NCBI GenBank assembly: GCA_003402735.1
Contig: QQNE01000007.1
Location: forward strand, 1 to 64,000
From: Verrucomicrobiota bacterium
GTDB lineage: Bacteria; Verrucomicrobiota; Verrucomicrobiia; Verrucomicrobiales; DEV007
DNA length: 64,000 bases
Direction: 5' to 3'
This document shows, one piece after another, positions 14,047 through 16,294 of the stretch. Both the position numbers and the translations under genes were made by a program. Numbering within the stretch: position 1 is the stretch's first letter; each line of letters starts with the position of its first letter. The notes beneath the pieces were generated by a model, which searched no databases, was not told where the DNA came from, and was given only the letters and a program-made list of their open reading frames with translations.

Positions 14047-14568
14047 TCACTCTTCGCGGATCACTTCCACCCGACGGTTCTTCGGTGAGTCTCGAGGCAA
14101 GCCAGGGAGGGGTGCGGATTCACCTTTGCCTCGGGCGGCGAGGCGGCGCTCTGGAATCTCGTAATCCCGGATCAACAGGGTCCGGATGGCCTCGGACCGG
14201 CGCTGCGAAAGGTCTTGGTTGTGGGCGTCATCCCCATCGGCGCTGGCATGGCCGACCAAGGAAACCACGGCATGAACCAGTCGCGGATCCTTGAGAGCTT
14301 CGGCCAAGAGCCGGACTTGCTCTCCAGATTGGGAATTGGCCAACTCAGTGCTGTCGAGCCTGAACTCGATGGCTTCGATGTCGATACGGCGGATTTCCCG
14401 AGCCCGGATTTTCGCCGACTTGGCAGTCATGCCCTTGGGAATGAGAATCTCTTGGTCGAGGGCTTCGACGATTTTTGCGGCCGGAGTTAACGAACGGGAT
14501 TCCTGGGCCAAGCCCATCACGTTGCACCCGAGGGTTATCCCAAGAAAAATGGCAAGCCCGGTTTTCAT
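14047..14568 (-). CDS. Exported OmpA-family peptidoglycan-binding protein
   Basis: Signal peptide MKTGLAIFLGITLGCNVMGLA; 'LVGHASADGDDAHNQDLSQRRSEAIRTLLIRDYEIPERRLAARGKGES...NRRVEV'. Confidence 0.88.
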   Translation of the reverse strand: MKTGLAIFLGITLGCNVMGLAQESRSLTPAAKIVEALDQEILIPKGMTAKSAKIRAREIRRIDIEAIEFRLDSTELANSQSGEQVRLLAEALKDPRLVHAVVSLVGHASADGDDAHNQDLSQRRSEAIRTLLIRDYEIPERRLAARGKGESAPLPGLPRDSPKNRRVEVIREE

Positions 14569-15212
14569 TTATCGGACGTGGTGATCTCGACCATGGCGAT
14601 GCCGAGCTTGGAGGATGGAAATTGCTTGGGCGAGACCGGTGCGGGAACTGGGGATGAACTGACCTGTGGTTTGGGATCCACCAGCATGGCCCTGGGTCCT
14701 TTGCCTGCGACTTCTTCGATCCGGAGATTGCCCATCTGGGCTTGGCCTCCGTCGCGTTGAATGGCGGTGGTCAACTCGGCAGCGTCGGCAAAGGGCAGGT
14801 CGGAGACGACCAAGGCCAGATACTCCCGGCCCGACGGCTTGGCGTCAATGACGATATCCCACTGGTCGTTCGGGCCGGGCAATGGGATTTCGAGCCCGCC
14901 GGGAAGCTGGCTGTTGGGGGAAAAGGAGTTTGGAAACAAGACCGTCACCCCGCCCTCGGCATCTTTGTAATAGAGCCGGACGTGGGACCCGGGAGGAACG
15001 GTCACAAAGGCCTGGAGTTTGTCCCCGGCACGATAGACCAGCTGATCCGTGCGGAGTTTGACCTGAAGCGTGGGGGCAGAGCCGGTCTCGCGTTTGGCGA
15101 TGTGAGCGGCTTTGGCGACGAGAGCTTCCACCGGATCCTGGACTGGTTCGGCATGAGCGCAGAGGCTAGAACCGGTAAGGCAGATTGCGGAAAGAATCAG
15201 AAACAGTTTCAT
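14565..15212 (-). CDS. Exported DUF4384 domain protein
   Basis: Signal peptide; 'VKLRTDQLVYRAGDKLQAFVTVPPGSHVRLYYKDAEGGVTVLFPNSFSPNSQLPGG'; ATGA overlap with the OmpA gene. Confidence 0.78.
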   Translation of the reverse strand: MKLFLILSAICLTGSSLCAHAEPVQDPVEALVAKAAHIAKRETGSAPTLQVKLRTDQLVYRAGDKLQAFVTVPPGSHVRLYYKDAEGGVTVLFPNSFSPNSQLPGGLEIPLPGPNDQWDIVIDAKPSGREYLALVVSDLPFADAAELTTAIQRDGGQAQMGNLRIEEVAGKGPRAMLVDPKPQVSSSPVPAPVSPKQFPSSKLGIAMVEITTSDK

Positions 15213-16294
15213 TGACGGTTGAGGGTATAGCTTTTGACTACGACGCTGGTCTTGCCGAGGGGGAGGTTCCAGTTCTGGAATTCCAGACGATCCGGCGGTG
15301 AATCTGGGGAAAACGAGGAGGGATCACGGAGCACCCCAAGTTTCCGGAAACCGGGGCCAAGGTCGGCATCCGTGTCGGGGAGCTGGAGAAGTTCGGCCGT
15401 GATGAACGCGAAGATCCGTTCGGTGACTTGATTCTGATCTGCGGGAAGCCCTTGAGGAAACTCCATGGGGTATGCGATCACCTGACCATTGGTGGCAGGT
15501 GGGAGATCGGCGGGCAAATGAAGAGTTTGCCCGGCCTTGACCAGATTGTCGCCATTGCGTGGGCTGTGAAAGTTGGGATAGAGAAGGGAAACCGATCCAT
15601 CCGCCCAGACGGCACCCAGATAAAGGTATCCCGCCCGATGAGTGGTAACCGTCAGTTCCATGGATTGCCCGGGTTTGTAGTTCCCGGGCATGTCGAGGCT
15701 GACCGGAATCTGTGATGAGCCGGGAGGTAGGAACAGGGCAGACAGGGCCAGGATCGCGATCAAGAGACCGAGAATCACGGAAGGCCAGAACCAAGGGCGA
15801 CTGGGACGCAGGGAATCGAAGTCGATCCTTCCCACCTGTTGAGTGAGATCGTCCCGATCCGAGAACGCCCCATAGAGCGCTGCGCCATGCCGGAGTTTGT
15901 CCCGGTAGGCCGACTGAAGCTGTTGTTCGTCCGGATCCTGCTTGATCGGTTGATCCCAGGCGCAGGTCTCTTTCGCGATGAATAGGTAGACCGGTTTGCC
16001 AAGCTTCTTGGCTACCCGGTATTCCATTTGGGTGTAGGATTCCCGAGGCTGGGCGGGCGATCTCCCCGGAGGTTCTTCGCCGTAAACGCACCCAATCAGG
16101 CAGATGACGGCATCGCAGGGTTGGATCTTGCCGATCAGCTCCTGTTGGACGGTCCGGTAGGTGGGGGAGAAGTGATCCTGCAGGATCGGGATGACGCCGT
16201 CCCGATGAAGCAGTTCGTCCCGAACGGCCGTGCGATAGCTGCCGAGATCCGCCGTCGTGGCGCTGACAAAGATGCGCAGGGAACGCTTGGCCAT
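15209..16294 (-). CDS. DUF4062 - transmembrane - DUF4384 protein
   Basis: Start MAKRSLRIFVSATTADLGSYRTAVRDELLHRDGV...DAVICLIGCVYGEEP...SYTQMEYRVAKKLGKPVYLF (DUF4062); TM 'WPSVILGLLIAILALSALFL'; C-terminal 'YKPGQSMELTVTTHRAGYLYLGAVWADGSVSLLYPNFHSP' (DUF4384-like). Confidence 0.85.
   Translation of the reverse strand: MAKRSLRIFVSATTADLGSYRTAVRDELLHRDGVIPILQDHFSPTYRTVQQELIGKIQPCDAVICLIGCVYGEEPPGRSPAQPRESYTQMEYRVAKKLGKPVYLFIAKETCAWDQPIKQDPDEQQLQSAYRDKLRHGAALYGAFSDRDDLTQQVGRIDFDSLRPSRPWFWPSVILGLLIAILALSALFLPPGSSQIPVSLDMPGNYKPGQSMELTVTTHRAGYLYLGAVWADGSVSLLYPNFHSPRNGDNLVKAGQTLHLPADLPPATNGQVIAYPMEFPQGLPADQNQVTERIFAFITAELLQLPDTDADLGPGFRKLGVLRDPSSFSPDSPPDRLEFQNWNLPLGKTSVVVKSYTLNRQ

Follow-up and report, generated by a model that had tools for sequence, protein, structure and literature searches.

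A preprint of May 2026 described the DUF4062 domain as a TIR-like enzyme that cleaves nicotinamide adenine dinucleotide (NAD+; NADase), present in the antiphage system Swarozyc (KpSwz) and also in human TEP1 (PMC13174449). Proteins with this domain are frequent in defence islands and are able to act alone (PMC13174449). We analysed a 64,000-nucleotide stretch of DNA (hereafter the window) from a Verrucomicrobiota bacterium (order Verrucomicrobiales, DEV007; assembly GCA_003402735.1, contig QQNE01000007.1) that contains an operon of three genes, termed A, B and C. Gene A joins a DUF4062 domain through one predicted transmembrane (TM) helix to a DUF4384 domain, gene B encodes a second DUF4384 protein, and gene C encodes an OmpA-like protein. 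Judged from sequence, the operon looks like an undescribed envelope-spanning alarm.

Gene A resembles KpSwz (PDB 10wc) in its N-terminal DUF4062 domain with a catalytic glutamate and an S-x-T-x-x-E motif, followed by a different C-terminal module (PMC13174449). KpSwz has a winged-helix auxiliary domain that binds the phage portal in the cytoplasm, whereas the C-terminus of gene A consists of the TM helix and DUF4384, and its operon also encodes DUF4384 and OmpA proteins that are predicted to be exported. The C-terminal helix-turn-helix/winged portal-binding domain of Swarozyc is absent from gene A.

Conflict systems of multicellular bacteria diversified by diversity-generating retroelements (DGRs) are also known, as are orthocaspase-like variable proteins in cyanobacteria (PMC10907252, PMC7159879, PMC7517822). 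The present locus shares with them DGR-mutated FGE/C-lectin tips on caspase-type proteins near TIR-type effectors. Most of the described systems are cytosolic and include NACHT/STAND, MoxR-vWA or kinase parts. In the window, by contrast, the diversified caspases appear to be exported, and their genes adjoin those for DUF4384 and OmpA proteins and a predicted membrane NADase. Sections of two papers on metacaspase and orthocaspase neighbourhoods report fusions of caspase with FGE, 14 metacaspase operons that contain OmpA, and cyanobacterial orthocaspases that carry DUF4384; an operon of DUF4384 and OmpA, a connection to DGRs and a membrane partner of the TIR family are not described in those sections (PMC3501461, PMC7475262). 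The open-access literature searched yielded no account of the DUF4384-OmpA module or of proteins with the TIR-family-TM-DUF4384 architecture.

Anatomy of the operon and its predicted NADase

The genes and domains of the operon are as follows, with domain calls from Pfam that all lie above the gathering scores.

15209..16294, minus strand: gene A, DUF4062 (TIR-like NADase fold), one TM helix and DUF4384; 361 aa from ATG
16010..16276, minus strand: DUF4062 domain of gene A, residues 7-95 (E 9e-13)
16022..16024, minus strand: codon of gene A E91, aligned with KpSwz catalytic E97 (PMC13174449)
15728..15784, minus strand: predicted TM helix of gene A, residues 171-189 (Kyte-Doolittle scan)
15467..15679, minus strand: DUF4384 domain of gene A, residues 206-270, predicted periplasmic (E 2e-11)
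15209..15212, minus strand: stop/start overlap of A and B, ATGA
14565..15212, minus strand: gene B, DUF4384 protein, predicted exported, 215 aa (DUF4384 at residues 59-138, E 3e-15)
14565..14568, minus strand: stop/start overlap of B and C, ATGA
14047..14568, minus strand: gene C, OmpA-like protein, predicted exported, 173 aa (OmpA at residues 69-154, E 3e-13)

The first-pass annotation of this DNA had proposed three minus-strand genes overlapping by ATGA at both junctions, and the reading frames and overlaps were confirmed. It had also placed DUF4062 inside the cell and DUF4384 outside, separated by one TM helix, with gene B secreted; this topology is supported as a prediction. The Kyte-Doolittle scan found a single hydrophobic segment in gene A, preceded by arginines, and in a longer frame from a GTG start (422 aa) the same stretch occupies residues 232-250. 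The N-termini of B and C are signal-peptide-like, as judged by reading the sequence rather than with a signal-peptide tool.

A profile of the gene A DUF4062 domain and 28 relatives (29 sequences) matched the KpSwz structure at E=2.7e-11. Gene A E91 aligned with an alanine at chain position 84 of PDB 10wc, which is catalytic residue 97 because the construct begins at residue 15 and carries E97A; the offset from 84 to 97 was counted by hand. E91 was invariant across the 29-sequence alignment, together with S86, Q89, G68 and G72. The AlphaFold model of the domain had alternating strands and helices and a predicted local distance difference test score (pLDDT) of 94, and a Foldseek search with it returned weak matches only, including nucleoside deoxyribosyltransferases and TIR proteins. 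Because of the KpSwz profile match, the alignment and invariance of E91 and the domain model, gene A is likely to be an NADase with its catalytic glutamate kept, and the cytoplasmic DUF4062 effector proposed earlier can now be put more strongly as a predicted TIR-like NADase.

Structure models were made for the DUF4062 domain and gene B only, because a combined full-length alignment misaligned the DUF4384 halves. A fold search with gene B gave no confident match, the weak ones being Ig-like or macroglobulin-like. A search for a DUF4384 relative with a solved structure found none, and PADLOC returned no match to A or B.

The layout predicted for gene A is that of a single-pass receptor of the TIR superfamily, with DUF4062 in the cytoplasm and the C-terminus facing the envelope. 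Among the DUF4062 proteins compared in the order, roughly half have the domain followed closely by a TM helix; most others run on into further regions, several with NTPase-like motifs. Three of the DUF4062-TM proteins, from three genomes, end in Amidase_2, and others in tetratricopeptide repeats. Amidase_2 is a peptidoglycan amidase domain that acts outside the cytoplasm, and its presence on DUF4062-TM relatives supports the proposed orientation, with which TIR_2-TM-DUF4384 proteins (below) also agree. The Amidase_2 proteins lie at:

L026:1501-2877
L016:679-1965
L020:1498-3270

Their own design appears receptor-like, with a predicted NADase inside and a peptidoglycan amidase or recognition-type domain outside, and merits separate study.

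The third protein had been called peptidoglycan-binding, and this part of the early description was weakened. In OmpA-like domains the aspartate of the GHTD motif and the arginine of NxxLSxxR contact peptidoglycan. Gene C retains the arginine and has GHAS in place of GHTD; because the aspartate is replaced, peptidoglycan binding is doubtful and not to be assumed, and plain anchoring by gene C was considered and found unsupported. Most DUF4384-linked OmpA proteins (the window and the L035-L095 loci) likewise carry GHAS, GHSS, GHTS or GHTC with the arginine kept. Gene C weakly matched PADLOC ZorB (E 2e-4), and Zorya ZorAB likewise uses an OmpA/MotB-like domain for defence linked to the envelope. 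Whereas ZorB has a TM helix, gene C begins with a predicted signal peptide; no ZorA-like gene is adjacent and the key aspartate is replaced. Membership of Zorya was considered and found unsupported.

Caspase and DGR genes at DUF4384 loci

A DGR reverse transcriptase, its accessory protein bAvd and three caspases lie about 1 to 9 kb from the operon, confirming the neighbourhood that had been reported for it. The features, with domains from Pfam, are:

12891..13310, minus strand: PDDEXK_3 (GxxExxY) protein between the operon and the DGR targets
11170..12813, minus strand: caspase-FGE protein, predicted exported, DGR target
11169..11308, minus strand: variable region of that caspase-FGE gene
9971..11173, plus strand: DGR-type reverse transcriptase (RVT_1) with RYTDD
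9397..9753, minus strand: bAvd accessory protein of the DGR
7615..9378, plus strand: second caspase-FGE protein, predicted exported, DGR target
9084..9223, plus strand: variable region of the second caspase-FGE gene
5112..6950, minus strand: third caspase, predicted exported, lacking FGE

All three caspases carry the histidine and cysteine dyad motifs. About 740 bp separate the operon end (14047) from the PDDEXK_3 gene (13310), and this gap holds a small open reading frame (ORF) at 13706-13990 on the plus strand with a weak, below-cutoff match to a HicB-like antitoxin.

A third caspase-FGE variable region was found on another contig of the same genome (C106, 11631-11770). The three regions have 111 of 140 columns in common, and 27 of the 29 variable columns fall at codon positions 1 or 2. 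Only 5 of the 111 invariant columns are A, a pattern that mutation of template adenines would be expected to leave. Two genomes from two other families (G028 and G075) hold DUF4384, OmpA, caspase-FGE, Avd and reverse transcriptase genes in one neighbourhood; there, the mismatches between variable regions and template repeats (17, 18 and 23) are all on template adenines. Clean template repeats, with caspase-FGE targets that differ at template adenines only, lie at:

L054:15919-16057
L056:2512-2651

Co-occurrence was assessed across 190 genomes of the order and at 48 DUF4384 loci outside genus g16. DUF4384 was present in 46 genomes and caspases in 78; a caspase was present in 36 of the 46 DUF4384 genomes versus 42 of the 144 others (odds ratio 8.7, p 5e-9, a guide only since relatedness is ignored). 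At 28 of the 48 loci a caspase was fused to DUF4384 or lay within 8 kb, compared with about 0.7 expected at the genomes' mean caspase density, a density that is a lower bound, with caspases clustered and many loci from related species and not independent. Nearby caspases are thus enriched about 40-fold, and caspase-DUF4384 fusions exist. OmpA was directly adjacent on the same strand at 27/48 loci and within 8 kb at 36/48, FGE was present at 13/48, and DGR genes at 4/48. Within genus g16, OmpA was found at none of 10 DUF4384 loci and a caspase at one. The window genome has only two DUF4384 clusters, which two of its eight OmpA genes adjoin; the second cluster, on contig C121, comprises a cytochrome-DUF4384 gene, OmpA, two caspases and Avd. 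The suggestion that such genes gather at caspase and DGR loci therefore held for DUF4384 and OmpA beside caspase(-FGE) genes, four of the loci having DGR genes, but the exact DUF4062-TM-DUF4384 architecture, known from one genome, is too rare (n=1) for statistics.

Domain replacement in front of DUF4384

Two genomes from the family of the window genome (G016 and G188) have a canonical TIR_2 domain in the place of DUF4062. One of these TIR_2-TM-DUF4384 proteins is followed by OmpA (G016) and the other stands beside a caspase-FGE gene (G188):

L076:8016-9287
L086:8838-9872

Genome G051 repeats the full order of an N-terminal domain-TM-DUF4384 protein, an exported DUF4384 protein and OmpA, beside a caspase-FGE gene. 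Genome G106 encodes a zinc-ribbon-like protein-TM-DUF4384, with OmpA after it and caspases before it, and the DUF4384 half of this protein is the closest relative of that of gene A (E 3e-27). In a tree of 86 DUF4384 domains, which has some long branches away from the clades used here, gene A and the G106 protein group together at 95/82 inside a clade at 100/94, and the TIR fusions fall within a cytochrome-DUF4384 clade (95/94). Because gene A and the TIR versions sit on different DUF4384 lineages, the tree indicates that a TIR-superfamily domain was fused to membrane DUF4384 at least twice.

Other partners of DUF4384 include kinase, C1-peptidase and caspase domains, and most often a cytochrome-c-like protein. 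An operon of exported cytochrome-c-like-DUF4384 and OmpA, sometimes with caspases, recurs at L037 (window genome, contig C121), L077, L080-L084 and L089-L095. A link between a redox protein and caspases in these operons would be unusual.

A possible signalling pathway and competing explanations

We propose that the operon is an envelope-spanning receptor-effector, in outline like a Toll-like receptor, fed by hypermutated caspase-FGE sensors, a reading that we consider plausible if not quite probable. Gene A would hold a cytoplasmic TIR-like NADase, joined by its TM helix to a periplasmic DUF4384 beta-sandwich. The soluble periplasmic gene B protein and the OmpA-like envelope protein of gene C would keep the DUF4384 ectodomains in place or cluster them. 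The receptor would probably be fed by the exported caspase-lectins, acting as hypervariable sensors with lectin-fold tips that the DGR mutates. The ligand might be a phage, a toxin or the surface of a neighbouring cell, and its binding would lead to activation or recruitment of the caspase. The DUF4062 domains would then be brought together by proteolysis or clustering at the DUF4384 assembly, NAD+ cleavage would be switched on, and the cell would be arrested or killed. This proposal builds on the gene anatomy, the fold assignment, the conserved catalytic glutamate, the DGR signature of the caspase-FGE targets, the genomic association and the independent replacement by TIR; enzymatic activity, cellular topology, contacts between the proteins, the ligand, the direction of signalling and cell death are inferred. 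The complete adaptive innate-immune chain, from hypermutated exported caspase-lectins through a DUF4384/OmpA relay spanning the inner membrane and a cytoplasmic TIR-family NADase to cell death, is more doubtful, and we regard it as rather unlikely in full.

In most descriptions, known immune systems linked to DGRs and the TIR NADases of bacteria are cytosolic and post-infection. If the proposal is true, a membrane TIR-family receptor and hypermutated exported caspases would move bacterial sensing to the cell surface. The uncharacterised DUF4384 domain would then serve as a module for coupling across the membrane, and a few genes would suffice to test directly the function of exported caspase-FGE proteins and their DGRs.

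Several observations weigh against the proposed receptor. No second DUF4062-TM-DUF4384 protein was found in the 190 genomes of the order or at the DUF4384 loci of a 388-genome sample of the phylum; one further contig scan gave only a spurious TM match, and plasmids yielded DUF4062 or TIR halves only. A search of the window, the compared loci and the 82%-complete assembly of the window genome found no template repeat for the window's DGR. Gene C lacks the canonical peptidoglycan-binding aspartate. The commonest DUF4384-OmpA partner is an exported cytochrome-c-like protein with no NADase, and the module is therefore not always an immune receptor. Finally, genome G016 has TIR-TM-DUF4384 and OmpA with no caspase detected in the genome, and a caspase is therefore not obligatory.

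The G016 arrangement is what would be expected under the main rival explanation, in which A, B and C form a self-contained membrane defence unit, Swarozyc-like or TIR-type, with DUF4384 and OmpA sensing damage to the envelope or the entry of phage. The adjacent caspase-FGE DGR would then be an independent system within one defence neighbourhood. The ability of DUF4062 proteins, often found in defence islands, to act alone (PMC13174449) and the DUF4062-TM-Amidase_2 proteins, which suggest stand-alone envelope receptors, point the same way. This explanation is possible but on balance not likely, as it must contend with the enrichment of caspases near DUF4384 loci, the caspase-DUF4384 fusions, and the joint occurrence of DGR, caspase-FGE, DUF4384 and OmpA genes in three families. 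The frequency of cytochrome-c-like proteins in DUF4384-OmpA operons (they occur in most) and the use of several other N-terminal domains would fit a more general role, with DUF4384 and OmpA as an envelope scaffold or redox-linked assembly whose partner domain (cytochrome, kinase, zinc ribbon, DUF4062 or TIR) is interchangeable and here possibly a non-catalytic regulator with no immune role. We consider this unlikely, given that the catalytic glutamate is invariant among relatives, that two different domains of the TIR superfamily were acquired in separate events, and that 28/48 loci have a caspase partner. Because the operon and DGR genes form separate transcription units, divided by the gap of about 740 bp and its opposite-strand ORF, their adjacency could in principle be due to chance. 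Such a coincidence is very improbable and largely refuted by the enrichment (28/48 loci against 0.7 expected); the genome-level association (odds ratio 8.7, p 5e-9, ignoring relatedness) and the cytochrome-DUF4384, OmpA, caspase and Avd genes on contig C121 of the same genome also speak against it.

Upstream of gene A, the window contains two minus-strand ORFs with no Pfam matches (16609-17307 and 17338-17781) and an ordinary gene for dodecin, a flavin-binding protein (17859-18152).
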